A DNA stretch of 64,000 nucleotides from Mesostigma viride (lineage: Eukaryota > Streptophyta > Mesostigmatophyceae > Mesostigmatales > Mesostigmataceae): contig RPFO01000156.1 in NCBI GenBank assembly GCA_009746045.1, positions 5,416,445-5,480,444 on the forward strand. The letters run 5' to 3'. The notes under the pieces are model-generated. The model had not been told where the DNA came from and did no database searches. It saw nothing but the letters and a program-made list of their open reading frames with translations. This document shows positions 7,429 to 34,997 of the stretch, in pieces. The position numbers and the translations under genes are program-made. Each line of letters starts with the position of its first letter. The stretch's first letter is position 1.

Positions 7429-7505
7429 GGGTGGTCCCACGCGGAATGGGGTAGATTTTTGCAAGAAAAAAACGCTAATTTCAATCGTCCGAAAACCGGA
7501 CATTG
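7429..7505 (+). repeat. Left terminal inverted repeat of the giant element
   Basis: Starts GGGTGGTCCCACGCGG. It matches the reverse complement of 34,911-34,997 except for an 11-base gap after ATGGGGT and a few substitutions. Beyond it, short words such as GCGCCGAAATT recur (7,505, 7,563), possible subterminal transposase-binding repeats. Confidence 0.9.
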
Positions 7506-7876
7506 CGCCGAAATTCTTGCCGAAAATTTGGCAGCCGAGCGAATTTTTCGCCCGACGGACTTTGCGCCGAAATTTTTTGTCTGCCGTGCTTCGAACTCAA
7601 CCGACTCCTGCTGTTGCGTGCACTTTGTCCGATGCCTGCAGGCCACGCACGAATTTTGCGACCGAAATATGACGACTAGACAAGTTTATCGACAACCTAC
7701 ATCGATCTATTGCCACTTTTGAAGTCCTTGGCTTGCTAGCAGCTTTTGATTATCAATGCCGGGAACAAAATTGCCGAAATTTTTTATTGAATCAGTACAT
7801 ATATGTGCACATGTCCGTAATTTTATCATTCTCAATTTTGACATTGTCGGAGTATTTGACAACTTAGGCATTGCGC

Positions 7877-8314
7877 CTAGAAAAAGGTGCCCCATCCGTC
7901 GATGTCAAAATCGCCGAAGGAGTACACTCCCTGGTACTGGTCTCCCCTGTAGTTGGGAGGCTCGCCTGTATACATTTTGGTGTTCCACTTGGCCCCGCCG
8001 TTCTCCGCAGCAGCCAGGAACTCCTGCTGGGCCTCGGCCCTCAGGCGCATCATTGATACATTGGGAGAGCCCGGAATTTCCGTGCTCTCCACCACCACTC
8101 TCGCCTGATTGTCAGGCACGCATTGGTAAGCAGGGTTCAAATCTGAATCGGGTGGCACCAGATCGATCATGCCATTGCCGAACGCAATGACACCTGCACC
8201 CCACTGTGCAGAAGGTCCGAGCAACTCTACATCAATTCTGATGTTTGCAGCGTGCTCATTTTTGTCGACCATCACATAGGTATGCTGAGAACCGAAAATA
8301 TTGCTCTGCTCCAT
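7877..8314 (-). CDS. Unrecognised small protein gene within the giant element
   Basis: Minus-strand frame ending at 7,877 (…DIDGWGTFF). The first ATG in the frame is at 8,314 (MEQSNIFGSQ), giving 145 residues. The frame stays open to about 8,479 without another ATG, and an upstream exon beginning MLNFIRKLKK at 8,516 is possible. The protein looks like a soluble beta-rich domain: alternating hydrophobics (YVMVDKNEHAANIRIDVELLG), a Gly-rich GAGVIAFGNGM turn and a helical stretch MMRLRAEAQQEFLAAAENGG. I do not recognise the family and see no transmembrane segment. It shares its strand with the transposase and lies nearest the left TIR. Confidence 0.5.
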   Translation of the reverse strand: MEQSNIFGSQHTYVMVDKNEHAANIRIDVELLGPSAQWGAGVIAFGNGMIDLVPPDSDLNPAYQCVPDNQARVVVESTEIPGSPNVSMMRLRAEAQQEFLAAAENGGAKWNTKMYTGEPPNYRGDQYQGVYSFGDFDIDGWGTFF

Positions 8315-8635
8315 TTGTGACAGTGTTAAATTTCGGCAAGCTTGGCTGCTTGCAATCGACAGGAAATTGGTGACCCCGACAGCCAGACGCGCAAGGGTTA
8401 TAACTGCAGGTAGAACCCAAAATTTGTCGATAAGGAGTAATGGAAGGGCACGACCACCAGTCACTAGTATTCGCTTCACCGGACACCTTTTTCAGCTTCC
8501 GGATAAAATTCAGCAAGAGCAGCGGCGATTAGATACTAAATATTGCGTTATTGGTTCGTACCGTACCCAGACCAAAATTGTACTAGTGACGCAATTGTAC
8601 TAGGCGGAATGACAACTGCGCCCGGCAAATAAGTA

Positions 8636-8848
8636 TTTATTGCTCCAACCCCACACCTAACTTGTTCCGGAGCTGTTCGAAGCGAAGAGCAATGGAAGGG
8701 ATCGGACCCGAGCCAGATTTGAGTGCGGAACATGATGGCTGGCCTACCTCACTCCGAACATTAAGGTGGACCCGGGTTCGAATCCTGTCAGTGCTATTCG
8801 CTTCGAACAGTTCCGGAACGATTTTTTTTGTGGGGGTGGAGCAATAAA
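8636..8848. mobile_element. 213-bp MITE with 60-bp inverted repeats and a B-box-like core
   Basis: Ends TTTATTGCTCCA and TGGAGCAATAAA are inverted. The inner arms GTTCCGGAGCTGTTCGAAGC and its counterpart at 8,795-8,818 pair almost perfectly. The loop contains GGTTCGAATCC (8,774-8,784), a good Pol III B box/T-arm motif, but the rest does not fold as a tRNA. It is nested inside the giant element. No clear target duplication is visible. Confidence 0.65.
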
Positions 8849-9136
8849 TTCTCGACATGCAGAAACAAATGTCGAATAGATTGTGCAAAAAAATATCGAA
8901 ATCCTTATCATTATTTAAATATACAGCATAAAATTATGTTGCAGTAAAAAATAACTGTTAATTGAAGGCCGCAAAAAATTATCAACTACCCTTAAACTTG
9001 ACCACAGAAAGATCTCGAAAAATATATACAATATATGCGGCCACCTTTTTACACCCTACTGAAGCCCCACTCTAAAGATATAATACGAGCCGAAACTAGG
9101 GCGTCGTCTACCCGCAGCGAGACCCCAATTTCTTGT
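8849..9136. other. AT-rich intergenic segment
   Basis: Between the MITE and the transposase stop codon. No gene or repeat recognised. As the 3' flank of the transposase gene it may hold its polyadenylation signals. Confidence 0.4.
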
Positions 9137-9958
9137 TTAAGTCGGTGCCGGCCCCTCCGGGGCTTCATCCTTGATCACCAGCGTAGTAAGCCACTTGTCG
9201 AGCTCCTTGCTCATCCTGATGTCGGCACACATTCCGTCGCTGCGCACGCGTGCTTCTAGCCGGAGAGCCGGAGCGACGCAGAGATAGCAATTCACAAGCT
9301 CGGGCTGGCGTGACGGTGGCCAATCCTCAACGTTGAGCGTGAAATGCAGGGGGTCATGCTTATCCCGCTTCCAAATCCGAACGGGAAGAATGCCGTTCCC
9401 GGCGAGGAACAGCTCCTTCTCCCGTCCGTTCCGGCCCTCGACCCACCTCTCGAAGTTCTCGTCTAACACGATCGGCCCGGCTTCGCTTACAACCTCAGCT
9501 GGCCAACCAGAACGGGTGGATGGGATCGTGATCCGTGTCCTTGTCCGATGGAACTGCCACATAGTCGTGGAGTCTCATCTGCCGGCCCATCGCCTCCCGC
9601 TTGTCCTTCAGCTGCTCCCCCCGCGTCACCATGCGAACCGGAGGGTTGGGCTGGCTCGGTGGCAGCAAACGGACAGTTTTCATCGAGCTTCCTGCATCAT
9701 TGAACTCGATGATAAACGACCACTCGCTTAGACATCCCTCAAACCGCCCAGCCAAACAGGGCGGACAGTAGCAGGAATAGCGCCTAATCATCAAAAGGCC
9801 AGGGTCGGACTTGTCCAGTCGCCACCAATGCGCCTTCTTGATGCCAGGCACCTCCTCAACCTCCGCGCGTCGGCCGGACTCGACGTCCTGTCATCAAATA
9901 GTTAGGACAAAAAGAATACCGTTCAAATTAGCAAAATTGACCAAAAACCAATAAAACA

Positions 9959-10211: not shown

Positions 10212-10655
10212 TTCATACCGAAAGAACAAGCGAAATTTCATACCTAAAAGAAAAGCAACCCATGGACAGTATATAGGGTCTCTCTGCAGAGATACCTTTA
10301 TTGGGTTTGAATTTTTATAGAACAGCGGCAGTTGACGTCTTAAAACCTGAAATAACACAAAATTCCGTACCGGGGGTAAAAGGAAGAAGTGGCGAGTGAC
10401 GTTCTCGGCCCGCGCGCGGGCCGACTCCCTGCTCGATGTCTTGCCGCCCTGCCAGTTCTGGTTCAAGTAGGCGACTAGCTGGTGGGTCTCAAGTATGTGC
10501 TGGTTTTCGGGAATCCTCTGCATTTCCCTCAAGACGCACTTGCACTTCGCTCCTTGACCATCCACCTCCCCCTTCCCATGCTGCTCCCCCATGTAGTGGA
10601 ACTCAAAGGCCTGCAGGTCGGGATCCCCCATGAGCAGACCGTTAATCTGGTTAAT

Positions 10656-11076
10656 TAATTAATTAAACTCGTGCTCCCGTTGGGGAGTCACGGAGCACCG
10701 AAGTGCTTTTAATCCCTGTGTGTGCACTACAGGAGAAAGGGCAGAGACCCCCAGTCTCCTTCATGCCAAAGGCATGCCACAGCTGCAATCGGGCGCGGCT
10801 AGCTAAAAGGACAGGCTAACGATCCGGCAAACTGTGGGTGCAATAAGACCCATGTGAGCATATCATAGCAAGGAGCGTGGGCAAGTAATCTGAACATAGC
10901 CAGGGCGTAGCATGGCTGTACTAGGACTAGGCTATGGCTGGTTGTGTACCGTGCGTTGGCGGCACGTGACTAGGTGTGTTGGCACAGCTAGGCAACATTC
11001 TAGGCATGGCTGCCTTAGCGGCAGTGACGCCAATGGTTACAAGCTAGGGCTATTGCTATTCTAGCCCGCTGGGGGC
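10656..11076 (-). mobile_element. TTAA-tailed retroposon (short 3' copy of the ORF1-LINE family) in a transposase exon
   Basis: The insertion is flanked by the 15-bp direct repeat GTTAATCTGGTTAAT (10,641-10,655 and 11,077-11,091). Removing the insertion and one repeat rejoins the transposase frame (…RYVINQI then NGLLMGDP…). Its tail is (TTAA)n at the left end, so the sense strand is minus. It has a CTCCC-CAAC-GGGAG hairpin next to the tail. Near-identical sequence is at 38,342-38,786, and related copies are at 48.8-50.6 kb. It is 5'-truncated by about 22 bases relative to the 38-kb copy. Long TSD, tail and truncation indicate target-primed reverse transcription. Confidence 0.85.
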
Positions 11077-13319
11077 GTTAATCTGGTTAATCACGTACCT
11101 GGACTTAAACTGCACCGCGCAGTTGTCCGAGCACATGTACAGGTTTCGCACCTCTACCCCTACTTCTACCCGCAGGGTTTCCAGAATCTTGCGAAGAGCG
11201 TATACGAGTGCGCGCTCGCCCCGCTTGATACTGGAATCCCCCAGGAAAAAGAAGACGCGCTTTTCCAGCTCGCCGTTGAGCCGATAACGCACGATCATGG
11301 GCATCAGGATGTGGCTGCGCTTGTGGAAGTACTGCGACTGCAGTTGGACGTAGCTGCTGTTCTCGTAGTTCTCGGCCCAGTCGCCGTGCACGAGCACGTC
11401 CCCCTCTCTCAGATTCTTCTCCCGATCCTTGATTGTATCCGCCTGCGACCAGGCCGTAAAGCAGTGCACGGTGAACTTGTCCCACCTCTTAAGAATCTCG
11501 TCCCGCAGCTCAGCTGGGGTGGACCTCATTTGGACTTGCTCGGGCCGCTTCACCTTCTTCGCCGCCCTGCCATCGGTCTCGCCCTGTTTCGCAAAGGTCC
11601 GCAGACAGTTTCGATTTGCAATAAAATCGCATTTCGATCAGATAACTGCAACTCACAAAGGGTCTCGCTGCAGCTATAGGTCACAAAAACAAAAAGTCAA
11701 CGACATTTTAACGGAGAAATAAAATCGAAACCTACTCACCCTCACCCCTCGGGTCACAGTCTGCTCCACCATCTCGAACTTGAACCAATTCAGAATCTCC
11801 GTGGAATTCTTGTCCCGATCACACTGCACCCAGTTATTATGGATGCCGCATGATTCCTCAGGACAGAACCCCTCCACACACGCCATCTTCAGTATGCGGT
11901 GAACCCTCTCCGTCCTCGGCACCCCATCTTCGTCCTCCACCAGCCTCTCAGAAATGTCGAGGTCTTCCAGGTCCCGTCCCCGCCATTCATCTTCCCCCTC
12001 CCCCTCTTCCATCCCCCCGCCCATTCCGCCCCCTTCACGCAGCCCGTTATCCCTGCCGTCAGTCTCGGCGGACACCGGGCAGTGAAAGTGCTTGATCCAG
12101 TCCGTCGAGTGAATGGCTTTCCACATTCCGCAAGTACCGTCCGGCAGTCTGTACTTGGAGCATCCCGCACACTCCGCGCCACACTTGCAGTTTCTGCCGT
12201 GGTTCGCATTGCAGTGCTTGGTCCACGCCCCCATGGCCGACTGCATGGTGACGTGCTTCTCACACGCGCACAGGTTCCTCTCCTTCCACTTGCCCTTGAT
12301 GCAATCGGGCGCGTATTTGCAGAAGGTCGTGTAGCCCACGTGAATGCCCACGTCCTTATCATACTGGTCACTCCTTTTGTTCCAGTACGCATGCTTTTCG
12401 AGAAAGTGATTGTACATGTCCTCCTTGGAGGTCATGTAATAGCGCGCTCCCTCAACGGCGACGAGCACCCCGCGATTGCCATGACCCTCCCTGCTGTAAG
12501 TGCGCTTGACATCCTTCATCTGGGAGGAGGCGCGCGACTCATCATCGTGCATCCACGCGTCCACTATCGCGTCAATCACGAATTGCGGCAAAGGGCGCCC
12601 CTTGCGAGCCTGCGCGTGTCTGAGGTAGTCCAACTTCTGCTGCCTTCGTATCGCGCGAATTCCGCGAATCTTCTTGGCGTCCATCCCCGTCAGGTTCTCC
12701 AACTCCGCGGCCGAAAACTCCTTCTCCAAGTCGTCACCACAGTAAAGCGTGGACATCAGCACCATCCTGACGTCTCTGTCTGCGTCGCTTTTGGTCAGAC
12801 CATCAAAAAAGCCGTTAATCCGAGCCACCCAGAACCTGTTCAGTTCTGCCATCCGCTCCTGATTGTAAAGCTTTTTCGCCTCATCATGATACAGCCCGTG
12901 ACCTAGTTCAGCGGTCCTAGAGTTAAAGCCAGCAATCATCTGGTCGAAAGCCGGCCCCCGCCCCTCGGGTTTTGTCATCGCCTGAGCCGCTTCAAACGCC
13001 TGGTCAGCGAAATATTCCCCAATAACCCTCTTTGATTTCTTGTATTCTCCCGGCCGCTTGACTTCCTTGGCTTCAGGCTGCGCTGGATTCTGGTTCTCAT
13101 CTCCGAAAACCCTTTTTGCGCCAGTTGGCTGCTTCGTCCCGGTGTTCAACTTAATTGCACTGAATCCTGGACGACCGGACGCAAGGGCGAAAACTCCCAC
13201 CCGTTCGCGTGCTGCATGCCATGACGACCGGCATAACGAAATCCATGCAAATCGAGTAACGTTGGGAAAAGCGACAATTACAGACAAAGTTCGAAAGTGT
13301 ATCATTTTTTACCACGATT

Positions 13320-13580
13320 GGGGTCTAGCTGCAGCTAGACCCTTAGAGGGGCTTTTTCCGTTAGACGAAAAGATTACCTGATGTGGTGAACTTAGCATAC
13401 CCCGACCAAGATTGGGGTCTCGCTGCAGCTAGACCCTTCATTGCGGCGTGCGATTGTTAAATCACAGACTTCTGATTCATTAATTTTATAGCAACCATAA
13501 AGAGGGTCTAGCTGCAGCGAGACCCTTGAATTTAAGCTATTGCTTGTGGTTATAAATGGTCTAGCTGCAGAGAGACCCCA
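13320..13580 (+). repeat. Cluster of four ~22-bp palindromes in the 5' intron of the transposase
   Basis: Copies at 13,320-13,343, 13,414-13,437, 13,503-13,526 and 13,558-13,580, all of the form GGGTCT-[AC]-GCTGCAG-N-[TG]AGACCC. They lie between a possible first exon (~13,600) and the main exon. Confidence 0.8.
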
Positions 13581-13717
13581 ATAAGGACGAAAAGATTTCA
13601 GGTTTTCCTCACCTTCGCGGCTCATTCTCTTATTAGTTCTCCCAGAACACTCAGATACCTGCATGGCGAGAATAACAAAAATAACACAGTAGCATTGATA
13701 AAATTGTTTATCAGAAA

Positions 13718-16671
13718 ATATATATTAAAAATATAATTACTTACAACAGAGTGAAATCACTCAAACCAAAGCAAACGCCCAGCTATAAACCTATATACAG
13801 AGCCATGTCAAAGCTCTATACTACGATAAGACCAATGGAAACGCCTAACGGGAGGAACCTAATAGCCCTGCTGCACCGCAAAATCAGCCCGCGTACGGCG
13901 GAGCATGATGTCAGCCATGGCCCGAGTCAGCGCCACCGACAAGCGCTGACGCCAATATGACGTCCAGGTCCGCGCCGACCATGGGGCCCGCTGGCCCTCC
14001 AGGTCCAGCCGGTCCTCCCGGAGCCGGCAACACTCCTTGAAGAAGGCGGAGGTCAGGGGCCCCATGGCCCCAAACTCCTCCAGGACAAAGGGCACCACAC
14101 GATGGTGCCCGACGTCGCCATAGGCCAGGAGCTTGGCCCGCTCCGCCCGGTCCGCCGTGTAACCTGCCGTGAGGGAGGCCCCAGCCACGTGGCTAAGAGC
14201 CAAGGGCCGCGCCACCGAAACGTCAATAAGCAGATGCCGTCCACCCCCCTCAAAGTCCAGCACCACGATGTCAGGCCGGTGGTTGGGGGAATAGAAGGCA
14301 GCGCCATCCGCATCCTCGGACCGGATGTTCGCGTGGGGGAAGGGCCGACCGAATCATGGCGAGCACCACCGTCAGGAGGACAGTGTGCAAATACAAATAC
14401 CAATTCTGATTCTGTTGGCCCCCCATGCAGGCAAGGTAGTGAGTCCCCGTGGGATCCAGCGGCTGCCCACAGCTACCACAAGGCCGCCCGGCCGGAACAA
14501 GAGGCTGCGGGGCAAATAGCTGGTGCCGGAGCGCCACCGAGTAGTGGCTGGGAGCCAAGGCGAATGGGGGGCCATGGGAAGAGCACGAAGGTACGCCGAG
14601 CCCACACTCCGCAAGGAAAGCGAGAACAGCCACGCACGTCCCTGGGCGTTGAGGTCCGCAAAAGAGCAATCCAATCAGCCGTGTGCAGAATACCCGCGTA
14701 GGTTTTCTGGTGTTTATCGATGACGCGAGCAGGGAATGCGGCGGGAGATTGAACGGAGGCGACCGAGGGAGTGCCGCGAGGGAGGTGGCGCTGTACCGCC
14801 TGAGCGGCACGGACGGGAGAACAGGCCTGCTGGATCTCAGCATAGGCCTCCTGGATGGCGGTGACGAAGGGCAAAGGGCTGCTGGGGTCCAGGAGGTCAG
14901 GCGCTGCTGTTGCCAAAAGGGGCAGGAGCCGGCAGCTTTCCGCCCACGACTGAGCGACGGAGCCCAAAAATGCTGCTGGGGCCAGCCGGGCGGCACGAGT
15001 CAGACCGCAGCCACCCATCCGTGCAGGCAGGGAGGCAATGCGAATAGCATGTGGCGGGAGGTCGGGGCCCGGGACCAGCTGCGCCAAGGCCGACTGGATG
15101 CGTTCGTCGTGGCCCTCGGCGGCCAGCCGGACCTGAGCCGGAAGAGCGCCCCGGAGCCAGTGAACGACGCGAGGGTGAGCGCAAAACCACAGAAGCAGAC
15201 CCTTGGTCTGCGAATCATGAAGGCGCGCAATCAAGGGCAGTACCTCAGTGCGTGCCTCGAGGGCGGCCCGCAGAGCATCGATGACAAACGCGGGGTCGCC
15301 AACCGGAACGCCGAGGACATCCAACCCATGGAGGCGCTCGTCCCGGCCCAAGAGCTGGGGCGGAAAGCCGGAGCAATCACCTTGGGGCGAGTACACCGCG
15401 CACTTGGCCAGGGTCAACTGGAGGTTGATGTCGGCCACCGCGGTCTGCAGTGCAAGCAGAGCCGCGGTGGTGTCCGGCACAGGGCCCAGAAGGTAGATAT
15501 CATCCAAGTAGGCCTGAATAGCGACCGCCGGGTGGGCAGCATGGACCGCTTGGAGGCAACCCTGGAGGGGGGCGGAAAAGTACAGGGGTCCCAGGGGGTC
15601 CCCTTGCTGGGTGCCCGACCGCGACAGCAGGCCGCCGCGAGTGCCGTCCTCCATGATGTGAACCAGTTGGCCGGGCTGGCCGTAGCACACGGCTGTCCAA
15701 GCGTACAAGTCCTCGAAGGACTCCATGACGGCCGCAAACATGCTGGCGCGGGACAGACTGTTGAACGCGTTGTGGCAGTCGACCTTGACGACAGCGTGGG
15801 TGGGGTGGGCCTCGAGGTAGGCCTGCACCGAATGGATGAGGATATCCGCCCCGCCTGGAGTCGTCACCCCCAGCTGGGCCGCCACCGAGGTCTCACCCGC
15901 TGCGAGGGGCGGGCAGAAAAAGGCACGGAGCTCGGGCGCCTTTTGGCGGCAGATCACTTTGCCCACGAGCTTGCGGAGCACCTCACCGCAGGCGATCGGG
16001 CGCACCTTGCCCTCGGGGGGGGCAAGACACCCTTGAGCAGAGCGAGGAGGCGAGCGCCCGCTAACCACTCGCGCGCAGCGGGAGGAACGCGACCAGCCGC
16101 CAGGTCAATGAGGGTGTCAAAGAGAATGTCCTCGCCCCCATGCCCCACCAGGACCTCCAAGTGCTCGTAGCGCCAGCCCGACGGCCCGGTAGAGGAAGCC
16201 CGCGGGACCGCACGCATCACCTCCAGGAAGCAGTCGCGGTCCAGCCGGAGGGGGGCCGGCAGGGGGTCCGGCACGGGCAGCTGGAATCCGGGCTCCGCAG
16301 GGTGAAGAGCCTCCAAGGCCGCCAGGGTAGCCGCATTGGCGGGGGCCAGCTTGGCCATTTCCAAGCGGGTCATGGCCCGGCTGAGCTGCCCCTCGCGGAC
16401 GAGGCGGATGACATCGGCGGCCACCCGCTCGAAGTTGACCTCCCCCGACAGCCGGGCCGTGCGCGGGGGCGGCACGCCAAACAGCCCCTCCCAGTCCCCC
16501 TGCAGAAAGCGTCGGCAACGGGCAATAACCGCACCCTGGAGGCCGCGCACACCACGCCCGAGAGGGGTGAGGAGCAGGCGGGGGGTCACCATGTGCAGTT
16601 TAAAGCCCAGCGGGTCGTCCGGAGCGGCGTGCATGCGCCGGAGAGAAACGATTGCACATTGCGCGAAAAGG
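13718..16671 (-). mobile_element. GC-rich LINE copy A, 5'-truncated, nested in the giant element
   Basis: Reverse complement of copy C from its position ~57,590 to its 3' end. The 5' break is at 16,671, where copy C-like sequence (CCTTTTCGCGCAATG) changes to AT-rich DNA. The 3' tail is ATATTAAAAATATAATTAC. It holds an RT (KVDCHNAFNSL, GTQQGDPLGPL, AYLDDIYLLG) and the endonuclease end. Frame breaks: the G8 run at 16,015-16,022 (shared with copy C), a deleted base near 14,657, a six-G run near 14,568 (shared with copy B) and an extra base near 14,340. It is therefore dead, but young by similarity. Confidence 0.9.
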
Positions 16672-18082
16672 TATATACTAAATACAGTATATTTTGCAAA
16701 AGATTTTATAATATATTGTGAATAGCATGGATTAATTCCACATACTTTAATAATATGGTATGTTAAAGTATATAGAATCATTATTTAGTAAATGATTTAC
16801 AAGAAAAAGTGGTATAGACTATTATTATTATATAGTTCGGCAATCTATGATAGTAAGACATACCGGATGTCAGGTTTATCAGCGGCCTCCAGGGCTATAG
16901 CGTCTCGCTGCAGCGTGACCGTTTGGTTCTATGACTGATTTCAGTAGATGCGCAGAAAAAAATTTATTTCCATGACCACACCAGGAATCGAACCCAGAAC
17001 CTCATTGTACATTTCTGCATGGTAACGATGTCAGCCAAACATCCGAATGTTCCCAGGTAAATGGGCTGGAGGTCGTCTCTTTTTATACCTGCGGCCACAA
17101 GCACGGGTGACGGCATATTGGATGTCGTCCAATCCGCTAGCTTGGTTCCAAAAGATGGGATCGAGCTTTTGCACCAGCGCCGCGCTTCCAGTTTTCAGTT
17201 CCGTGGGGAGGAACGAGGATGCCACGTTTCCAATTTTTTCAATACCGTTCAGCCCTGTAACGCCGCGTCCGGTTTGCGAATTGCGACCGTCCCATCGCCC
17301 ATCGAAAAAGAAGCGCAGCCGCAGACGGAGAGACCCCATAGCTGATACGAGCTGCCATATCGTTTCGACGTTTGCATGCTACCTGCTGGATTATAAAATC
17401 CTACGTTGATACCTGCCTGGTGCCGGAAGTTTACAAGGAAATCGGTCTGCTTTCGCCGCACAACGAAAAAAAGGTGAGCTTTTGCCGCATCCTGGATGGT
17501 AGGCTGACTAAAATTGTTCTATCAAAAACGGCAACTAAACAGCGCATGCACGCCGACGACACAGTTAGCCAGCTGGGCGAAGACATGTCCTTGCTGCCAT
17601 CGCAAGAAACTCTATGTTGCAGCAAGAGTGATAAAAATGTCTGGCTTCCTTCTTTTCGTTGCTAGCTAAACCCTGCAGACATCTCGGTAGAGTCAGCTAA
17701 GCCGATCCTAATCCACATCTGGCATCCATCCCTTTAGTCTAGTTGCCATGGAGCGTTTCTTGGTCTCGCACATGTCGATCATGGTGGTGCTAGGCTTTCA
17801 CTTGGGTCACCCTTTCCATGTTTGCTATGCCTTTGGTCTGGTTAGGTTATAGGTGTAGATGTGCACATACTGCATTTGCTGCGTTTCTAATCGGTGCTCC
17901 TGTTTGATGCTTTTTTTCCCCTTCATATCGTTTCGACGTTTGCATGCTACCTGCCGGATTATAACATCGGACGTTGCTACCTACCTGCATAACGATAGTT
18001 TGCAAGAAATCTTCATTTTGCCGAAACACAAAAAAAGGTGATCTTTTGCCGCAACGTGGATGGTAGGCTGACTAAAATTGTG
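16672..18082. other. Low-information DNA before the minisatellite, with a 160-bp direct repeat
   Basis: About 17,358-17,520 and 17,925-18,083 are related direct repeats (CATATCGTTTCGACGTTTGC, then a TGCTACCTGC…GGATTATAA block, and GGATGGTAGGCTGACTAAAA). The second copy runs straight into the first minisatellite unit. A degenerate palindrome lies at 16,900-16,920. A 102-codon minus frame at 17,031-17,339 could be an exon but has no recognised domain. On the minus strand at ~16,985 there is a GGTTCGATTCC motif without a convincing tRNA fold. Confidence 0.5.
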
Positions 18083-21000: not shown

Positions 21001-21263
21001 GCTACGTATCAATACATGTGGGGGGTGCTGCTACGTATCAATACATGTGGGGGGGTGCTGCTACGTATCAGGGGGGGGATGCTACGTATCAATACATGTG
21101 GGGGGTGATGCTACGTATCAATACATGTGGGGGGTGCTGCTACGTATCAATACATGTGGGGGGTGCTGCTACGTATTAATACATGTGGGGGGGTGATGCT
21201 ACGTATCAATACATGTGGGGGGGGATGCTACGTATCAATACATGTGGGGGGGTGATGCTACGT
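18083..21263 (+). repeat. G-rich minisatellite, ~30-bp unit, roughly 105 copies
   Basis: The unit is TGCTGC (or TGC, TGATGC) + TACGTATCAATACATGTG + six to eight G. Unit length varies from 27 to 32 because of the G run and the TGC count; a few units have CACGTG instead of CATGTG. The unit contains two small palindromes (TACGTA, ACATGT). The near multiple of three and absence of stops create three ~1,000-codon open frames, which are artefacts. Regular G runs give G-quadruplex potential and extreme strand asymmetry. Confidence 0.97.
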
Positions 21264-21990
21264 ATCATTTATTTATTCATGCCATCACCCCCCACATTTA
21301 ATGATTAATGCCATCACCCCCAACATTCATTTATTCATGCCATCACACCCCCACATTCTTTTATTCATGGCAGCACCCCCCACATTTATTTATTCATGCC
21401 ATCACCCCCCACATTTAATGATTAATGCCAGCACCCCCCAACATTCATTTATTCATGCCATCACACCCCCACATTCTTTTATTCATGGCAGCACCCCCCC
21501 ACATTTATTTATTCATGCCATCACCCCCCCACATTTAATGATTAATGCCAGCACCCCCCAACATTCATTTATTCATGCCATCACACCCCCACATTCTTTT
21601 ATTCATGGCAGCACCCCCCCACATTTATTTATTCATGCCATCACCCCCCACATTTAATGATTAATGCCAGCACCCCCCAACATTCATTTATTCATGCCAT
21701 CACACCCCCACATTCTTTTATTCATGGCAGCACCCCCCCACATTTATTTATTCATGCCATCACCCCCCCACATTTAATGATTAATGCCAGCACCCCCCAA
21801 CATTCATTTATTCATGCCATCACACCCCCACATTCTTTTATTCATGGCAGCACCCCCCCACATTTATTTATTCATGCCATCACCCCCCCACATTTAATTA
21901 TTAATGCCAGCACCCCCCCACATGCATTTATACATAGCATCCCCCCCCACATGTATTTATACGTAGCTTCCCCCCCCACATGTATTTATA
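21264..21990 (-). repeat. Inverted, diverged minisatellite block with 120-bp higher-order units
   Basis: The same repeat family continues in the opposite orientation: CCCCCCACATTTATTTATTC with CATGCCATCA replaces the forward unit. Four ~30-bp variants (…TTTATTTATTC, …TTTAATGATTA, …ATTCATTTATTC, …ATTCTTTTATTC) form a 119-120-bp higher-order unit starting at 21,421, 21,541, 21,660 and 21,780. The outermost units (21,920-21,990) look again like reversed forward units (ACATGTATTTATACGTAG). Confidence 0.9.
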
Positions 21991-22000
21991 CGTGGTCGTA

Positions 22001-24581: not shown

Positions 24582-25500
24582 AATCGGTCCGTCCGGTTAC
24601 ATGAGATCCTGGGAATTTTGGCGCGAACGCGTCGCGTTGAGGACGACGGGACCAGAAAAATTCCACCTCGCATGGCTGTCGACCCTATGTCCGCCGGAAT
24701 ATCAGTCAAAAGTCAATTATGCATGTTAAGTCGCTGCGATGGATGCAAACGACGCGTAAACTCTCCTGCTTTGCGATGATGCATGGTAGATATTATTCGC
24801 GTATTTTCATGCGTCAAAATAATTCGCAAACTGAGACGCTGATTTTTTGTGTCGGCCAGATCTGGAATTGGCAGCGAAAATGCATGTTTATTAATTGTGG
24901 GGGAAACTTTTTTGTTGGAAGCTCACAATTCCCAAAAGGTGGAATCCGAATGGGCTTCAAGTCTACTTTCACGAGCGCTAATCAGTTTTTCGAGAAACGA
25001 ATCACATTTTCCAGGCTGTCGCATTACCTGCCGGCAGGTCAGATTTTGCTGTTTTCAGTGACGTTTACGACCGTCCTTGCTTGATGCGTTTCTTCCTTTT
25101 TTTCGGCTCACGGCATGGCGGGGCTTGTTCCAACATGCCTGCGGAGGTGTAAGCTGTGTAGCCATGATTTAAAAGTCACATATTGCTCTCGCGCCACCAT
25201 CTGTTACTGCTCGACACTGCAAGAAACACTGGTTGCCTGCTCGCAACGCAAGCACAAGCACGACAACGGTGCCCTAATCCACATCCAGGCGTGTATTTCC
25301 GAGAAAAACTTCAGGCTTTTGTCGCGGCATACCTTCGGTGTTCCAAGCCGTTCACCGCTCCCCGAAATAGTCTTATGACTCGCTTTTATAGCATTGTGGG
25401 TTCGCGTCCGCCATCTCCGCCGGGTGCTGACACGAGATGTTCGCGCTGAACCTGGACTGCAAGGTCGCCCGCTACCGGCTAGCTGTACGTATTTAGCAAG
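24582..25500. other. 3' flank of gene X, no supported gene
   Basis: A 121-codon frame at 24,719-25,084 has unremarkable composition and no domain; I do not call it. The sequence keeps the CpG content of the surrounding giant element. Confidence 0.4.
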
Positions 25501-27971
25501 CTCTGGATGATATTGTCATGGTTTTGGTGCAGGAAGGTGCTGTGGGGGGGTCTATCTCACCTCTTTACCTAGCTTTCCTCCTCCTAGCTTGACAGCTAAG
25601 TTTGCATCAGGAAGTCATGCTTGTTGACAAAGCTCGATGGATATAAACCTTGGGATGTGCTGTGAAGGTGTTAGCATGCTTGCTTGAAGAATTGAATGCG
25701 TATTTGTGCAAGCCATGGACATTTTTTATTAAGGGCAGTAGGTAGCAGCCACGTTCTTATTCAATTGTGTCAGGACGTCTATGTTGCCTTTACTGCACTC
25801 TGTCCTAGAGGAGTTTGATGCCACTGTAGATGACTATGACCAGTGGGGTGGTGAGGATGGGCCGGTGTGCTGGGGTCAGTGGGGTGAGCCTGAAGGGCAC
25901 CTTGGATCACGTGACCCTTAGGCAATCATGCGAGGCTGTGCAGTTTATGGCTTGTGATGTATGGATGCAGCGGGTGAGGCAGGTTGTCGTTGCCGTGGCC
26001 TGTGTTAGTGAACTCTATCATCTTTTAACTTACCCAAAGCCCCCCTAGACCTAAACTGCCTCGCCTTCTTTGAGGGGTTGCCTTCTTTGAGGAGTGCCAT
26101 GTCTTGAAAGGTTTGTTGGGGCCCTGGCATTTCAGAGTAGGTTGAGGTGGAGAGGGGTGGCACACTGCTAGGTGATGGCAGGGCCATCCATGTGATGCAC
26201 CTTACGTTGGGATGGGGACCATGCATTTGTTCTTGTTGCTAGCATGGGCAGGGTGAGCGGCTGGGAGTAAGGTGTAAGTGCTACTTGCGCCACTGTCCGA
26301 AAGGGGAGCTCCATGCGGTGGGCAAACAGCGTTGCAAGCGTACACTTCACACAAATGTGGTCTGATGCACTCAGCTGACCTGCCATTTCTCTTGATGCAC
26401 CAAACCACACTAAAGGCTTGATATAGCCGGTAGGAAATGCATGTGCATGCAGTGTCAAAAGCAGAGAGGGACACTGTTAGCACATGAGTGTGATTGTAAA
26501 CCGATGAGTGTGAGCCTCCCCGTGCCATCCCATGCATTTTACACCTATTTTTGGCAAGCCCCCATCATGCCGCAGTTATGCACCGCCTATGCAAGGGGGA
26601 TGAATAGACAGTTATAGGTGTGTTGAGGGATGAGATAAGGGTAAACATGAGGAGCCATGCAGGCTAAAACGGAAGGGCGATGTCAACAGTGTGTTTGCCC
26701 AGATTTTGATGTCAGGAGGGGCTGAAAGATCAGTGGCCACGATAAACCTAGGTGGATTACATGAGAGATGACACGACCATGAGAGGGTGGTAGATGAGTT
26801 CAACTGAGAAGAGCTAGCATTACATGCACAGATTCTTAATGACCTATGGACTGTCCAAGGGTTGGAGTTCAGTGCACGTTCCAAAGACTATGATGAGCAT
26901 GACGATGATGGCAAGGGGGCGGGGGGGCGCAATTAGGACAGGCACTGATGCAGAATTATGTTGTACAGCAGCTAGGTGCTTAGCTCAATTGAATAGCAGC
27001 CCAAGCCACTGCTGTCCTTGATTGCGCTTTGTATTTCCATGTAGCAGAGAGGCACCTGGCAGATATATATTTGGATTAGCTGCTATAAGACACGCACAGC
27101 AGGGGTGCCCAGCAGAGTGGGCCAAGTACTGCAAAGGAGATTGTGTGTGCTGCCGAGCGGGGCCCGTTTAGAAAAGAGACTGGTCAGCCGACAGGCACGA
27201 CTGGTCAGCCAAGCTCCCCTTCTTGAGGCTTGTAGGCACTATGGTGCTTGTTCCGAATGCCAGCATCTACTGTGATTGATGGTGATTTTATCCCTTGATG
27301 ATCGCTTTTTTAGTCTGTGTTGGCTAATGTATCCAGCCCCAGTGGCATGTATATGAATCCCATGACAGCCATGACGATAATTGAGTGAAGAATGCAAAGT
27401 TTTCCAAGACAATGGCGCAGAATATGGAGTATTTTTGCAAAAATCGCTCTATTTCTGCTTGCATCCGTCACTTTTAGTGGGCCGGCAGTGGTCCTAATAT
27501 GTCCAACTTGTGTTCTAGTGTAAATTCAATTATTGTGCTATTAATGTGACGAATTCTGGCATGGTTGGGCCGCATATGTGCTGGCAGGGGCTTCATAAGT
27601 TTGAAAATAATGCACTAAAACGGTGTTTTGGCTCATGTATGCCAGAATTATAGCACATAGTTTGGTCCTACATTGCATACTTAAGGGCGGTTTTTGTCTT
27701 TGGATATAAATTAATAAGCATGACCATTTCCAGCTGAATTGGACTACATTTACTACTTGTGTGTGGCTGCTATGCCTCCTTATGCCTGGAAAACATCGTT
27801 TTTTGCACTTTTCCACGTCACGGTTTGATGCTAAAAATAGGTCAGTTGGCCCCCCAATTAATGTGATGTGAACAGGGTCCTAGGGGGACCTTAAGTCCAG
27901 AAAGGCACCCCGATCTGACTATATGTGTGGGAGATATGACCCCATGTAACAAAAAAGGCCGTTTTTAGGTG
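25501..27971. other. CpG-poor block without genes
   Basis: By eye this segment has fewer CpG and more TG/CA than its neighbours, no frame over ~100 codons, no palindromes and no minisatellite. It may be a decayed nested insertion or an old intergenic region. I could not find inverted or direct repeats at its edges. Confidence 0.4.
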
Positions 27972-30006
27972 ATGTGGCATTTGGACATGGCAAGAGACCA
28001 CTTACTGCAATCTTTTGTTAAGTGGCGGACTGACTTTCTTGTCAGCCCGGACGCCAGCCTTTCGCGGGAAGCGGTCGCTTTCTTTTTGGATTGGGCTGGA
28101 CAGGTGATCCAAAGTTTCCGGCACCGGGAGGACTTCCATGTTATTCAGACATATAAGCCACACCGGGAAATCGTCCAGGAATGGTTGGATCAAATCTCGT
28201 TGGTTGATTGTCTCCAGAGTATCCGAACCAAGACAGACACGGAGTGGTCTGATTTAGAGGCGGGAGGCCATTGGCAGTCCCTCGAGTTGTTCTTCGAGGC
28301 GGAATTGAGGCGGCAACTGGAAAAGGAGAGAGCCCATCAAGTGCCGATATGGCCTTTGGGGAAGATTTTGAGGAGGTGGAAGTTCTACGTTTCGGTACGT
28401 TAACTTGCCGATATCGTTTATCGATTTGGTTTGTTTCCATTCCCTGAATAGGGCTCTATATGCTGACCAACCTTCATGGTTTGTCCTGTCATATCATGCA
28501 GGGGGGCTCCATGCCAGGGGACGTATCGGAGGATTTACCTAATTTGTCAGACTTGGTTGATAAGGTGGGTGCTTGTCCGTCGAGTTTCCACGAGCATCTT
28601 ACATGGGGTCTAGCTGCAGGTAGACCCTCACCCTTTTATTGAGACTGACATCTTCGGCTAATTTCAACGGTGCCCCCAACCAATCTGTTGTCTTTTTTCA
28701 GGGGGCGGCTGCGGCGATGGCTGTTGACAGTGCTGGTATTTGGTCTGGACTCGAGATGGAAATGGTAAGCATTAAACGATATCCGGATGTCTGCATTTCG
28801 CCTTAAGTTTTAGTGAGCGCATTATGCGAAATATACAAATGTCGACTAATTTTGATTTCCAATGAGCTGTCGTATTCGGTGTTGACAGGGGGGGGTTTGG
28901 CCTCAGCAGGCGCTGCCGGAGAGGAAGAAAACGCTGGAGGAGATGAGGATGGGGGGGATGAAAACGCTGGAGGAGATGAGGATGGGGGAGACGCTGAGGG
29001 AGAAGTGGCTGTGCAGGTACGTTCATCCGCCGCGAGTTCGTGTGATTTTTTTCGTGCTGAGGGGTATCTCCGCAGAGAGACGATGGTGCAACAATCGAAC
29101 TGAGGTCAAGTCCCTTCTTGTTGTTTTTTTTTTGTCATGCAGGCGGGGGCTGTCGCTGGGGGTACTGCGGGGGGGAAGGCGGCGAAGCCCGCATTGACTG
29201 AGCATGAAAGGGAAAAGCTGGATTCCCGCAAGAAGGTTGCGAAGGATCATATTATTGCTGTTGGCCTGATCATGCTTAAGTCTCCGCCCGATGGCGTCGA
29301 TTCGGAGGGACCTGCGGGGTCCGAGTTTCGCAAGTACCTGACACGACTTGAGGCGGAAGTCGATGCCGATTTCGATACGGAGGTGTTGGGTGCCGCTACC
29401 TTTCAGAGTGAATTGGCATATGAATTTGTAAATCTGGTGAAGTCGAAAGCCACCAAGAATTTCAAGTGGCAGCCTAAGGAGTACTCAGAGGCAAAGGTTG
29501 AGAAGATCGAGAAATTCATGAAGGCTGATTTTCGTCGTCGGGCCGCTGAGGGAAAAAGGGCGCTGAATGCGGTGGCAAAGGCTAACAGTAAGAAGAACGC
29601 GGAGGCGAAGGCGGCGGAGAAGGAGGCGAAGAAGGCGGAGAAGGAGAAGGCTAAGGAGGCCAAGAAGCAGCAGAAAACTGGACAGGTACGATTGTTGTGA
29701 AAATTTTGACCTCTCGCTGCGGGTAGACGCTGACTGGCTGCGGGACTTGGTGTTTAGTGTCAGTAAGGTATTATTCCAACAGAACTTTGTTCGTCCCTGA
29801 ACAGGATGTCGTGGTCGGCCTAAATATTACTGACTTGAGCAAATCCTGCGGTCCTTTTCGATTTTTTACTTCAGGATGACGGGGGGGACGAAGACGCCAC
29901 GGTGGAGAAGAAGTTACCTGGTCATGACGCCGTGTTCGCGCTGGTGAAGGATATCAAAGAGACAACCAGCGCAGGCCAGAAATCGGGAGAATCCGGACCA
30001 TGGTAG
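27972..30006 (+). CDS. Gene Y: six-exon gene, acidic middle and Lys/Ala/Glu C-terminal helix, function unknown
   Basis: Exons 27,972-28,394, 28,502-28,564, 28,702-28,764, 28,889-29,016, 29,143-29,685 and 29,875-30,006 (TAG). Every intron has GT-AG ends and joins in phase 0, except that the G7 run at 28,889-28,895 is one base off. About 448 residues. Exon 1 is a 141-residue helical domain (HLLQSFVKWRTDFL…WPLGKILRRWKFYVS). Exons 2 and 3 are each exactly 63 bases. Exon 4 is a Gly/Asp/Glu repeat (ENAGGDEDGGD twice). Exon 5 has a helical domain (EREKLDSRKKVAKDHIIAVG…) ending in an Ala/Lys/Glu helix (KEAKKAEKEKAKEAKK). No family recognised. Intron 2 carries a palindrome at 28,605-28,628, with degenerate ones in introns 4 and 5. 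Confidence 0.72.
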
Positions 30007-30101
30007 CTCGAGCCTGCCGTTATCTTTTCCGCGTTTTCGAGTCGTTCAGGATGATGAAGATGAATGGTGATGGAAATGTGTATCCTTGTGCATTGAAATT
30101 A

Positions 30102-33100
30102 TGGCTGGCTTACGTGTGGAGCGACTAGATGACCTAGACGGTGGGGCCGGAAACAGCATGCTTGATCAGGCCGTGTGTTTCTAGATATGCTCAAGTACTG
30201 CTCGAGTAGGCGGATGGCGGACGTCGATGACCTGCCAAACTGGCCCGAGTTCTCCCCCTTTCTTGAGCTGCTCCGGTCACTCAACAAGCTTTTTAAGGAG
30301 GGGGTGCTCACGAGCAGTGGGAACCCGGACACCGACCCTATCATTGAAAGCTGGAAGCCTTCGAAAAAGGTCGACTCGAACAAGGAGGTCAGGGACCAGA
30401 ACATCCGGAAGGCCAATTCTCTCAGGGAAACGCGTTGGATTCGGCCGGCCGATTTTAAGCAGACCGGATGTTTCAGTATGCGGATCCAGACGGTCAACGC
30501 GCTTATTTTGCCAGAGGCTTGAGGCAGCGGCGTTTAAACCTTGAAACCATTAAGGAGAACGGCCGCATTCTCCTCAATGCGCGGGACAACGCCTTGCACT
30601 TCAAGGTTGTTGTCCCGGTCTGGCAGTTCCCTTTCCAGGCGCTTGCCGAATCTCAACCTGACCTGTTCGACAAGCAAATCTTGTGCATGCCGGATTTCGT
30701 CAAGTGGCTGAAGATTCACCACGGCGCCAAGATTGACGCGGAGGATGTGGGGTCCAGGTACTTCCGGCCCCTTTCGGATACTGAAGTCGACGTGTGGCTT
30801 AACACGGAGTCCACCACCTCTTTCCTCGCGAGAGGACTTGAGTGGCGTACCTACGCCAGGGTGGACGAGGTGGAAGCAGCTTTGCCTCAGGACATCCAGG
30901 GGAGTCGGGATGTTTTCAACCTGCTGTGCAATACTGCGATGAAGTCCTACGATCCGAAATTTTTTGAGCAACGGGTACCGGTACCGTATCTGGTTCTCCG
31001 GTACGCGGTGGTGGATGGGAACCACTACTTTAAGGGGTTAAAGTCGTTTCTCAGGGGGGCGGATGGCGGGTGGGGAGAGGTTCGGGCAATGATGTGCGAG
31101 GGTGGGGCGGAGTCCAATTTCGCAAAGACTCCTCAGGAGGCGGAGCACGCCTTCCAGGACCTGTTGCGGAAATTCCGTGGTGGTTACATGGGTACGAACG
31201 TCATTCTTCTCAAGGGTGGCGACCTGCTCCCGTCGTGGAGTGAGCTGCGAAATCTACCTAAGGCAAAAGAAGATGTAAGCTATCTATTTTGGCAGGGTCT
31301 AGCTGCGGGTAGACCCTCGGAATTTTCGTGGTTGTTTTTTGTGTGCGCTTCAAGTTTTTTGCGAGGGTCTCGCTGCAGCTAGACCCTCTCCTTTTTTTTG
31401 TTGGAATTTTCGTTGCGTATTGTCGGCCGTTTCTTTTTCGAATTTTGTTAGGGTCTATCCGCAGCTATACCCCTCGCCTTTTATGACTGAGTTTTGTCGT
31501 TGCTCGCTCGATGTTAATTGATGTCGCAGGCGGTGCTGACCGGCAAGCTGGAGAAGCTGTTCGACATCGCCAAGGGGGCGAATTCGGAGGACTTAGCCGT
31601 GGCGGATCGTACGCTGGGCCAGGCGTTGCTTGACGTGTGGAACTACAACAAGCTATATCTATACGGCAAAGTCACGCGTGGGAAGGGCCACTATATTGCG
31701 GATGGCCACTACACCAATCTGCTCACGTACATCCTCCCGGCTATGCGGCAAGCGGGGGGAAGGGAAGGGAATGTGGAGCCGGCAGCGGTGGATGTACACG
31801 AGGAGGAAGCAGAAGGAAAGAAAAAGCCGGCCCACAGCATTGCTTCAGTGCATTCCGCTTACAGTCGCACGCTGGCCAACACGTTTCTCCGTCTGACACA
31901 GGAGCAGACTGATGATCCTGCCTCAACGAAACCCGCGCCTGAGGAGGTGATGATGCAAAGGTGCAAATTCGCCAATGCAGAGGGGGAGAAGAAAGGCCAG
32001 AAGGTCTCTTGGACTTCTTTCAGGAACTTGGCCAGCCTTCCTATGATGGACGCCGTGATCGATTGCATCATGAGCTGCCAGGTTGGACCGGAAAAGCTCA
32101 CCAAGTTGGTGGAGATCGCCAAGGATGTGCTGGAGTGCCTGCGGCTGACCATTTGCGCCAGATTCAAGGAGGATGAGACGCTGGAAGCGCAATGCAAGGA
32201 CGCAAAGGCAAGGAGTTTGTGGCGTCTCATATTTTCGAACTCGTCTTCAATCTCCATCCTCTCGCTCGGCCGGTCGGCAGGAAGGAGATTGTGGCCAGAT
32301 ACCGGGAATTTTGGGATGTGGCCGTCATCATAACGAGGAACATCGCCTACCTTCTTAAAGCCAAAAAACACGCCGCACATCTGAGGATTCCGAGAAAGGA
32401 TATCAGTAATGGCAAGATCGACTTTCAGGAGATTCTGCTAAAAGAGAGCGAGGACAAGACGGTGGGTTTGGCACTTTTGGCTCCGGAAGCGTTCAGGAAG
32501 TACGCTCCAAAAGTTGGATTACTCGAAGGGGGGGTGAAGGAGGCGGCGATGAAGGGGCCGGTGAAGGGGCTGGAGAAGGGGAAGGGGAAGGGGAAGGAGA
32601 CGGAGGCGAAGAAGGAGAAGGGGGCGAAGGAGGAGGAGGAGTGGGACGTGAAGTATGAGTGGCAGAGTGTGGACTGGGGCCGTCGCCGGGTCTGGTTTTG
32701 CTGTCAGGAACTAGACGGTGATGATGATGACAAGTCGCTCGTCAAGCAGGTGGCAGGCGAGGTTGCCTCAGCTTCAGCCCGCCCCTTTCCCTTGGGCAGG
32801 TCCCTTCCGTGCCTGAGCCTGCTGAACTTGGCGAACATGTGGGGTGATAAGTGGAGTAACTTTCAGAGAGGGTGGTGGGCGTTCGGTCCTTGCCCGAATC
32901 GGACATTCCCCAACCGGGCGGGATGTACGATCATGTGCTGAAGGCTTGCGCCCACGAGTTTTTCTCCAGGTTCGAACCGATGGTGATCGTGTTTGGTACC
33001 GAGACGGAGATTAAGGGGTTTCAAGAGATAGTGGAAAGGATCGGGAAAGGGAGTGAATTGTGGGAGCGGCTTGAACAGGGGGAAGGTGATGGGGGGCCTA

Positions 33101-34703
33101 GGCTCGGAAGGGCGAAGAAGCGAAAAGCTTCCCACGAAGCTGGGGGATTGTCCGCCGTGGTGGAGAGGGATGACCAACAGTTGTTGGAGGGAGGGGATGG
33201 AGGGGATGGAGGTCCGGCAGGAGGGTCTAACCGCGGAGAGACCCCCGTCGAGGTCAGAACGCAGCAGGCCGAACAGATGACGGGGCCTGAAGGTGATTCG
33301 GATCCGCCTGCGGCGAAGAAGCCCGCTTCTCAAGTGACTCGACGGGCAGTCGTGTCACTTGTTGAGGATGATGGAGGTGGGCCTTCCAAGCCTGCCGCGC
33401 GCAGCCCGTTTTTCAGGTTCCGAAGAAGCAGCTTCGGGTTCCCCCGGCGACTCTGCCCACCCCGGCGCCTCTGCCCAGTTCTCAGGTACCGAAGAAGCAG
33501 CTTCGGGTTCCCCCGCCGACTCTGGCCATTTCTCAGGTACCGAAGAAGCAGCTTCGTAAGCCAGTTGTGGCAGTGGCTGATTCGGACGACGATGCTGAGG
33601 AGGAGGAGGAGGAGGAGGACGACGATGCTGAGGAGGAGGAGGGGGAGGAGGAGGAGGAGGAGGAGGAGGAGCAGCACGTTGCTACCAAGAAATCCGCCAA
33701 GGGTGGGAAGGCTGCGGAGCACGTTGCTTCCAAGAAATCGGCCAAGGTGGGGAAGCCTCCCAAGCCTGCCCTGCCTCAGAAACGGCGTCGAAAAGCAGTT
33801 GTGCTTTCAGATTCGGACGATGAGGAGGAGAAGGAGGAGGAGGATGGCGGCGGAGAGGAGGAGGACGGGGGAAAGGAGCGCGTTGCTTCCAAGAAGTTAC
33901 CCAAGACCGCGAAGACTGCCAAGGTTGCCGAGCCCGCCAAACCCGCCCCGGCGCCTGCCCCCCACCCCCAGACGGGGTCTACCTGCGAGCAGAGGTCGAA
34001 GGAAAAGGCCAAAAAGGGTAAGAAAAAATCTGCGAGTGAATTCTGGTATGTAGAGTGTTTTGATTTTTTACGGTTGGCAGTCCGATTTCTACTAACTCGA
34101 TTTTAGTCATGCGTTGATGGCATGATCGGTTTGCTCGCAGGTAATGAGGATGTGGAGCAGTTACTTCGCTTGGCTAATGTGGCGGTGGGCTTCGGACCAG
34201 CGGCTGTACATGCTGACACTTCCGGACGGGAGGAGCCTAAGGGGGCGGAAGACAGTCAGGCGGGCGATGAGGATGATGACAAGCCCACGTTGGAAATGAG
34301 ACTTATGGACGGGGAAATGGGGTTCGGAGCACCAGAGGCCTTTTGGTGTGATGGGTGGACTTCAGCCATTATGCAAGCAGGGAACAAGGATACGGCTACG
34401 CCAATGTATGCCAAGCTAGAAGACGTCATGCTTTATGGGCAGGTGTCTGGATACGACACCAAGTGGAGGGACGTCGCATTTAAGTTTTTCGCTGAGGGGG
34501 AGAAGGGAGGGAAGTTGAAGAACAAGTTGTGGTGGATGCCGCTGGACTACGCGATGAAGGTGGTAAAGCTGACGGATGGCAAGAGCTGGAAGGATGTGGA
34601 AGTCTGGGCGCCTGCAAAGGAGATCGATAAGAAGAGGAGGAACTCGAAAACGGAACAGCAGATCGCGGAAGCGAAATTACGGAAGAGGCCCTCGAAAGTG
34701 TGA
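30102..34703 (+). CDS. Gene Z: large intron-containing gene with acidic/basic tail, function unknown
   Basis: Best start is ATG 30,102 (MAGLRVERLDDL); a 2-base GT-repeat indel near 30,172 joins it to the frame FLDMLKYCSS. Exon 1 ends at 31,274. Intron 31,275-31,529 carries three palindromes, and exon 2 begins AVLTGKLEKL in phase 0. A last intron lies at about 34,046-34,140; the stop is at 34,703. Frame breaks occur near 30,468, 32,190, 32,865 and 33,410. Contents: an N-terminal globular region (FQYADPDGQRAYFARGL…), a helical middle (ASLPMMDAVIDCIMS…), Lys/Gly repeats near 32,570, three QVPKKQLR repeats (33,410-33,560), a long Asp/Glu tract (33,580-33,670), KKSAK repeats, and a C-terminal ~190-residue domain with Trp-rich motifs. 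No family recognised. The tail looks like a nuclear, histone- or DNA-associated protein, but this is inference. Confidence 0.65.
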
Positions 34704-34910
34704 GGGAAAGTTAGCACTTGGACATGCGCTGGCAATGCTCGTCCTATGGTTAATACAAAGGTTAGGATGATGTCGAGTCTCTCCACATAAAATTTACATG
34801 AATTACTAACTTTCAAGCCTCTCGATGTGGAATGTACGCTCAAATTGACATGAATTAAGCATTATGACACCAAATTAGCTCGAAAATACGCGATCGGACG
34901 CCAAATTCGC
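34704..34910. other. 3' flank of gene Z
   Basis: Non-coding stretch between the gene Z stop and the right TIR. Words such as CTCGAAAATACGCGATCGGACGC echo subterminal words at the left end. Confidence 0.5.
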
Positions 34911-34997
34911 GCGAAAAAAAGATATCGGACGATTGAAACTAGCGTTTTTTTCTTGCAAAATGCGCCAAAAATGACCCCATTCCGCGTGGGACCACCC
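34911..34997 (-). repeat. Right terminal inverted repeat of the giant element
   Basis: Reverse complement begins GGGTGGTCCCACGCGGAATG and continues through GCAAGAAAAAAACGCTAG and TTTCAATCGTCCGA. The element ends at 34,997 and is followed by GCCA, the repeat of the four bases before the left end. Confidence 0.9.

Follow-up and report, generated by a model that had tools for sequence, protein, structure and literature searches.

The window analysed here is a 64,000-nucleotide stretch of the genome of the alga Mesostigma viride (contig RPFO01000156.1 of assembly GCA_009746045.1, positions 5,416,445 to 5,480,444 of the forward strand), within which positions 7429-34997 are a single copy of a multicopy DNA transposon. 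The ends of this element read GGGTGG...CCACCC, each beginning GGGTGGTCCCA, and end alignment together with comparison of copies places perfect 24-bp terminal inverted repeats (TIRs) at 7429-7452 (plus strand) and 34974-34997 (minus strand). All of the first 24 bases match (24/24) and, beyond a single gap of some 10 bases, the repeats stay alike for about 36 more, to about 65-75 bp overall, with the imperfect extension on the left reaching about position 7492. An earlier reading made from the letters of this DNA (the sequence-only reading) had put the inverted ends at about 75 bases, which is fair if the indel is counted and 24 bp is taken as the perfect part. It had also placed GCCA on both flanks, and inspection of the flank letters bears this out, with GCCA adjoining both ends as a target-site duplication (TSD) at 7425-7428 and 34998-35001.

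Organisation of the element

The length of 27.6 kb originally given for the element is inflated by nested insertions. A 19,431-bp copy on another contig (C745) is collinear with the window copy apart from four stretches present only in the window, and for this reason we reject 27.6 kb as the native size; four end pairs of 19,431-19,638 bp put the native unit at about 19.5 kb. The first of the four stretches (10655-11076) is a SINE-like insertion (short interspersed nuclear element) showing a direct target repeat roughly 15 bp long, which disrupts the transposase of the window copy in its second exon. The second (13725-16665, minus strand) is a piece of a retroelement carrying the reverse transcriptase domain RVT_1 (Pfam, E 2.2e-11), and the third (24571-27977) is a 3.4-kb insertion with short inverted ends CATCACCTAAAA..., possibly another DNA transposon. 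The fourth occupies 29954-30184. Because all four are absent from the C745 copy, part of the gene list in the sequence-only reading (a transposase-like gene and at least four other genes, three with introns) consists of later insertions, one of the supposed genes being the nested reverse transcriptase.

In its native layout the element has two divergent arms flanking a central minisatellite (18080-21989), in which a repeat search found a 30-bp unit repeated 108.5 times followed by a 120-bp unit repeated six times. The left arm, on the minus strand, holds a 1029-residue transposase and a small downstream gene. Copy comparison gives the transposase three exons: exon 1 (11746-13305), whose start codon is uncertain, annotated relatives beginning at MSREAR from an additional exon; exon 2 (10371-11583), which encodes the catalytic core and is split by the SINE-like insertion; and exon 3 (9137-9887), whose frame is broken in the window copy and open in the copies L020, L021 and L026. 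The small gene (MEQSNIFGSQHTYV...DGWGTFF) is an open reading frame (ORF) at 7877-8314 with a homologue in a second element family, described below.

The right arm, on the plus strand, holds a large multi-exon gene, or a tight set of genes, which we call the partner. By frame reading its first exon (A1, 22543-23743) is of low complexity and charged, A2 (23931-28394) is split by the 3.4-kb insertion, and A3-A5 lie between 28502 and 29016 (28502-28564, 28702-28764 and 28889-29016). A6 (29143-29685) and A7 (29875-31274, containing the fourth nested insertion) are placed by their frames and by second-family relatives, as are A8 and the exons that follow it up to the last stop codon (31530-34703), whose inner splice sites are approximate. 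The corresponding exons of the C745 copy lie at element positions 10627-11820, 12008-13057, 13165-13227, 13365-13427, 13552-13680, 13807-14349, 14539-15705 and 15961 onward; the first five translate without stops and the next two sit within open frames. Judged by lengths, all seven introns between the first eight exons are in phase 0. From exon 8 on the frames shift by single bases between copies, and the arm may encode either a single protein longer than 2,000 residues or several proteins.

Copies, target-site duplications and age

A search of the genome (439.9 Mb, 2243 contigs) with an element end, which the sequence-only reading had called for, was run with the first 101 bases. Scoring of 40 of 479 candidates gave at least 41 places, of which 40 are full-length matches at 100%; for the last 128 bases, 40 of 468 candidates were scored and gave at least 40 places. 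Half of the full-length left ends (20 of 40) can be matched with a right end located on their own contig, over spans of 16,108-58,385 bp. Duplications were read in 20 paired copies, namely the window copy, 18 other pairs and a pair on contig C557, and 17 of these, the window included, carry a 4-bp TSD. The earlier description was correct in seeing here a DNA transposon of the DDE type that is large, has inverted ends and makes 4-bp TSDs. The duplicated words are GCCA (window), GCAA, CCTA, CGCC, AGCT, TTTT, AAGC, CGCT, TGTT (on two contigs), TCCG, CGAA, GCCA (with one further matching base), GGAT, TCCT, GCCT and AACC. No target word is shared among the 17, and several are GC-rich. The two TGTT copies have identical flanks and represent one insertion on two contigs, and the 17 copies with TSDs consequently record at least 16 separate insertions.

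Two copies, one on C323 and one at C224:2489380-2505487, have identical flanks with 19,535 and 16,108 bp between their ends, respectively, and are probably two alleles of one insertion. At C557:401958-402680 (L036) two right ends face each other about 0.5 kb apart, and these are two adjacent insertions of the element family.

We also considered whether the ends belong to short non-autonomous elements, the interior being an accident of insertions on either side, and found nothing in favour of it. In all 20 copies that we fetched, collinearity with the element runs on for 1.1 kb or more, and in 12 it exceeds 3 kb, with first aligned pieces 95.8-99.7% identical, and the 20 end pairs span 16-58 kb; we consider such an accident hardly credible.

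Divergence was measured in 23 copies, made up of the window copy, C745, L008 and the 20 stretches of 10 kb that we fetched. Counting substitutions only, the mean over the first 1.1 kb is 0.85% and the maximum 2.28%; 27 of the 253 copy pairs are identical and the closest 15 copies differ by 0.24%. We dropped an earlier figure of 0.32%, obtained over 2.5 kb from 15 of 22 copies, as most of the seven copies that it omitted were more diverged or broken early. The element family is young, yet it is not the product of a single burst.

The transposase

The three-exon transposase is open over 1029 residues in three of the four copies tested (L020, L021 and L026), the frame of the fourth (L010) not being open with the splice sites tried. 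Relatives were sought by a word-based search of 5.8 billion proteins, in which shared 5-residue words were required and about 8000 best-sharing candidates were scored. Three proteins were found, all from Mesostigma and 100%, 63% and 41% identical (7982 candidates scored), and a profile search returned the same three (7717 candidates scored). The 100% match, to a protein annotated in Mesostigma viride (EukProt, jgi Mesvir1), covers 81% of the searched part. The sequence-only reading had picked out D-W-A-E-N-Y and H-G-K-G as transposase motifs, and these hold: D-[WY]-A-E-N-Y, SDNC and GEQHGKGEVDG are invariant in all three aligned proteins.

A structure model of the core has the strand and helix order of RNase H, with D60 after strand 1 and D145 after strand 4, and PIWI and RNase HI folds are its best matches among solved structures. 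Built on three sequences, the model is of moderate confidence (pLDDT 57, pTM 0.58; the full-length model reaches pLDDT 36), and at that level it suggests an RNase H fold with D, D and E in place. The transposase has no Pfam match above cut-off, and a search of Protein Data Bank (PDB) sequences with its profile gave nothing convincing (best E 0.17).

Related families and the partner gene

The more distant transposase relatives mark two further element families. For the second, with the 63% identical transposase, 45 of 1621 candidates were scored, which gave at least 45 places; for the third, with the 41% identical protein (P0003), 63 of 1485 were scored, which gave at least 62. Their ends were located where the similarity of two copies beyond the transposase stops. 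The end of the second family, GGCCGGGCCCACTTCGAATG, agrees with GGGTGGTCCCACGCGGAATG of the window family at 14 of 20 ungapped bases, and that of the third, GGGCGTCCCCAACATCTAC, at 8 of 12. The exact end word of the second family occurs 130 times in the genome, against none for a backward control. From about the first 100 places we picked nine pairs of second-family ends, mostly short (19.6-25.0 kb; others are longer, such as one of 37 kb on C1215), and eight of the nine have a 4-bp TSD (GAGA, TTTA, TACA, ACAA, AAAT, TATT, ATAC and CTCA).

One second-family copy, on contig C1 with ends 20,374 bp apart, was read in both arms and carries the same genes as the window family. The small gene lies near the transposase, between its stop codon and the element end (L073), and is also present in a copy on C1424 (L074, 99.6% identity); it is 63-65% identical to that of the window family, with a nonsynonymous divergence (dN) of 0.26-0.29, a synonymous divergence (dS) of 0.96-1.19 and a dN/dS of 0.25-0.27. 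With two other frames tried for the small gene, no more than 31 and 12 residues aligned. The far end of the C1 copy, read over 5.9 kb, has relatives of partner exons 6, 7 and 8 and the last exons, with order and orientation kept. Exon 6 is 59% identical over 73 residues (dN 0.31, dS 1.58), exon 7 is 57% identical (56-57%; dN 0.35, dS 2.59, dN/dS about 0.14), exon 8 reaches 73% identity in its first part (75 residues; dS not computable) and 56% in its second frame (dN 0.40, dS 2.75), and the last exon is 56% identical (dN 0.35, dS 1.01). Overall, the partner exons are 56-73% identical with a dN/dS of 0.14-0.35 (NG86 method; the high dS makes the ratios of exons 7 and 8 rough), and in every exon compared the third codon position has more changes than either of the others.

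These comparisons bear on how the right arm should be understood. The sequence-only reading saw a multi-gene cargo, and this does not hold: most of the arm is one exon chain with relatives in the second family, and given the RVT_1 insertion, the phase-0 exon chain and those relatives we reject four independent cargo genes. It might still be argued that a simple transposon captured a large host gene and carries it passively, and it is true that the large gene has no known transposition domain. Against this, relatives of its exons occur in the same order and arm of the second family under constraint, the protein search found only one protein, again from Mesostigma, among the candidates scored, and the search of the viral collection found nothing; we regard passive cargo as unlikely. 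Since the partner and small genes are conserved in the second family with a dN/dS of 0.14-0.35, they look like machinery rather than cargo, a reading backed by their occurrence under constraint in both families.

We also weighed whether the unit is an integrated virus or a Polinton-like element, as about 20 kb, several genes and inverted ends might suggest. The partner and small-gene pieces have no Pfam match above cut-off, no capsid, polymerase or other viral domain reached the curated cut-offs in the pieces scanned, and Pfam and PHROGs gave no match to polymerase B, integrase or capsid, although remote forms of these could escape such scans. For the transposase and partner pieces the PHROGs matches were all weak and to entries of unknown function (E 0.078-0.35), and a PDB sequence search with the exon A7 profile reached E 0.38 at best. 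Several Pfam hits below the curated cut-offs were treated as chance, namely CDtoxinA (0.095), oligo_HPY (0.099) and TniQ (0.11); YlqD (0.031) and two weaker ones in the annotated partner relative P0004; RecQ_Zn_bind (0.039), Bromo_TP (0.19) and two weaker ones; and Pox_Ag35 (E 0.42), which falls in an acidic low-complexity part. Viral contigs contain no relatives of the transposase or of exon A7. With the 4-bp TSDs, these results make a viral or Polinton-like origin very improbable.

Palindromes and neighbouring repeats

In the C745 copy the palindrome GGGTCTCGCTGCAGCGAGACCC is matched in 25 places by at least 16 of its 22 bases, where shuffled sequences would give 0.05, and 24 of the 25 lie outside exons by the exon list of this analysis. 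Variants of GGGTCTCGCTGCAGCGAGACCC occur between window positions 9112 and 33231, scattered through many of the element's introns and gaps, and none is found in the 64-kb window outside it. At the 16-of-22 threshold palindromes seemed common to both families, and this we rejected: in the second family a few words, different ones, reach 15 or 16 of 22. We therefore treat the GGGTCTCGCTGCAGCGAGACCC palindromes as particular to the window family; they may be sites to which an element protein binds.

Pieces resembling the nested retroelement were found, via a match to locus L003, at window positions 13718-14597, 52583-53541 and 59665-61142. Beside the element, at 4310-5430 on the minus strand, gag-like ORFs with a CCHC zinc knuckle (CYLCKGWGHIKKECP) were recognised by eye.

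Relationship to known transposons

Several known groups invite comparison. Sola transposases are of the DDE cut-and-paste type; CACTA elements combine a transposase with a second element protein; the KDZ group (Kyakuja, Dileera and Zisupton) comprises large eukaryotic elements with cysteine-containing transposases and extra genes; and Polinton/Maverick elements have a 6-bp TSD and genes for DNA polymerase B, integrase and capsid. Among the papers listed for Mesostigma repeats, giant DNA transposons, KDZ, Sola and DUF7869, as far as titles and abstract openings show, we found no description of the element.

Most of these groups can be set aside on ends or TSD, and on that basis we reject membership of KDZ, EnSpm, Kolobok/piggyBac and Polinton. 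Polinton/Maverick and Teratorn elements are likewise tens of kilobases long with several genes, and the present element differs from them in its 4-bp TSD and in having no viral or replication domain above cut-off. CMC/EnSpm elements are similar in their large size and DDE chemistry, but they are defined by 5'-CA..TG-3' ends, in contrast to GGG...CCC here, and by C(2)C and H(3-4)H motifs between the second D and the E (PMC12730594), neither of which is seen by eye between the second D and GEQHGKGE of our transposase. Within KDZ, Zisupton has 8-bp TSDs and Kyakuja has 7-bp TSDs and no TIRs (PMC12730594), whereas the present element has TIRs and a 4-bp TSD. Kolobok and piggyBac target TTAA (PMC9587614), a word found in none of the 17 TSDs.

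The Pfam family DUF7869 (PF25273) deserves separate mention, as it is likewise multicopy and has D and H-x-x-D-type motifs in the same order. In one of four proteins scored (P0002), the region from the second D to HGKG matched it weakly, scoring 12.3 bits where the cut-off is 26, and profile comparison with six of twelve fetched members gave a probability of 0.1-0.2% (hhalign); on these two results we reject membership. DUF7869 itself occurs in at least 150 places of the genome, with up to 63.5 bits, and in none of 14 control genomes, and several of its families are highly multicopy (for example L059-L070) and look like other, different mobile elements.

Sola (Sola1-3) is among the closest comparisons, sharing a 4-bp TSD and short TIRs, and Sola2 elements are reported to have 4-bp TSDs and to include one with an 888-residue transposase (PMC3627910). 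A diverged member of a described superfamily, for which Sola is the obvious choice by TSD length, with the large gene as an accessory known there, would also be in keeping with the DDE-like core. However, the Sola2 TSDs given as examples are AT-rich (AWWT, ATAT and similar; PMC3627910), whereas those of the present element have no common word and several are GC-rich (GCCA, CGCC, TCCG, CGCT, AGCT and others); the second large conserved gene is a further difference, and the word-based protein search found no named relative among the roughly 8000 candidates scored for shared 5-residue words. We consider such a membership possible, though rather unlikely. The sequence-only reading had suggested a Sola-related or a new superfamily; the latter fits the lack of detectable relatives within the limits of our searches, and the transposase probably represents a new superfamily-level lineage.

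Proposed mechanism and significance

Taken together, these data describe a DNA transposon that is young, probably autonomous and of a generally known kind, and this is well supported. Our favoured explanation, which we hold to be very probable, is an autonomous cut-and-paste DDE element of about 19.5 kb in which the partner and small gene are co-inherited and most likely have roles in transposition or its regulation. The transposase would use an RNase H fold in which the D of DWAENY, the D of SDNC and the E of GEQHGKGE make up the DDE set, would recognise the ends starting GGGTGGTCCCA and would then excise the unit; we infer this catalysis, and movement by cut-and-paste rather than by replication. 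Insertion at staggered cuts would yield the 4-bp duplications with no evident target word. The partner and small gene would act in transposition or regulation, like the accessory proteins of other multi-protein transposons.

A number of observations weigh against this explanation. Three of the 20 paired copies of the window family (C662, C382 and C100) have no TSD; the C382 copy shares its right flank with another copy, which points to recombination or to a join made in assembly. The C1 pair, one of nine in the second family, also lacks a TSD, and it is the sole second-family copy in which the partner gene was read. The core model, derived from three sequences, is only of moderate confidence, and no transposase is among the 50 best structure matches listed for it; that absence is no evidence against a transposase. 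As for the partner, searches of Pfam, PHROGs and PDB profiles found no known domain that supports a function, the annotated relative P0004 joins exon 6 to exon 8 and skips exon A7, and the frame is interrupted in both copies read by nested insertions or by single-base differences, which could be assembly errors.

A more specific model is that the element belongs to a new superfamily in which moving a unit of about 20 kb needs the partner, and perhaps the small protein, together with the DDE transposase, the array of about 25 GGGTCTCGCTGCAGCGAGACCC palindromes serving as binding sites peculiar to the family, as a eukaryotic counterpart of multi-protein systems such as Tn7 or Mu. We offer this tentatively and would not consider it the likelier outcome. 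DNA transposition is said in a review to lose efficacy above 6 kb of cargo (PMC6431247). Yet two families of units of about 20 kb, each with dozens of closely similar copies, have spread in a unicellular streptophyte alga. As the gene set is common to both families, the partner and the small protein are candidates for enabling such long units to move, and the existence of little-diverged copies with open transposase genes makes this movement testable. The annotated proteins of Mesostigma include genes of the element, a point of importance when genes are counted close to the base of the land-plant lineage.

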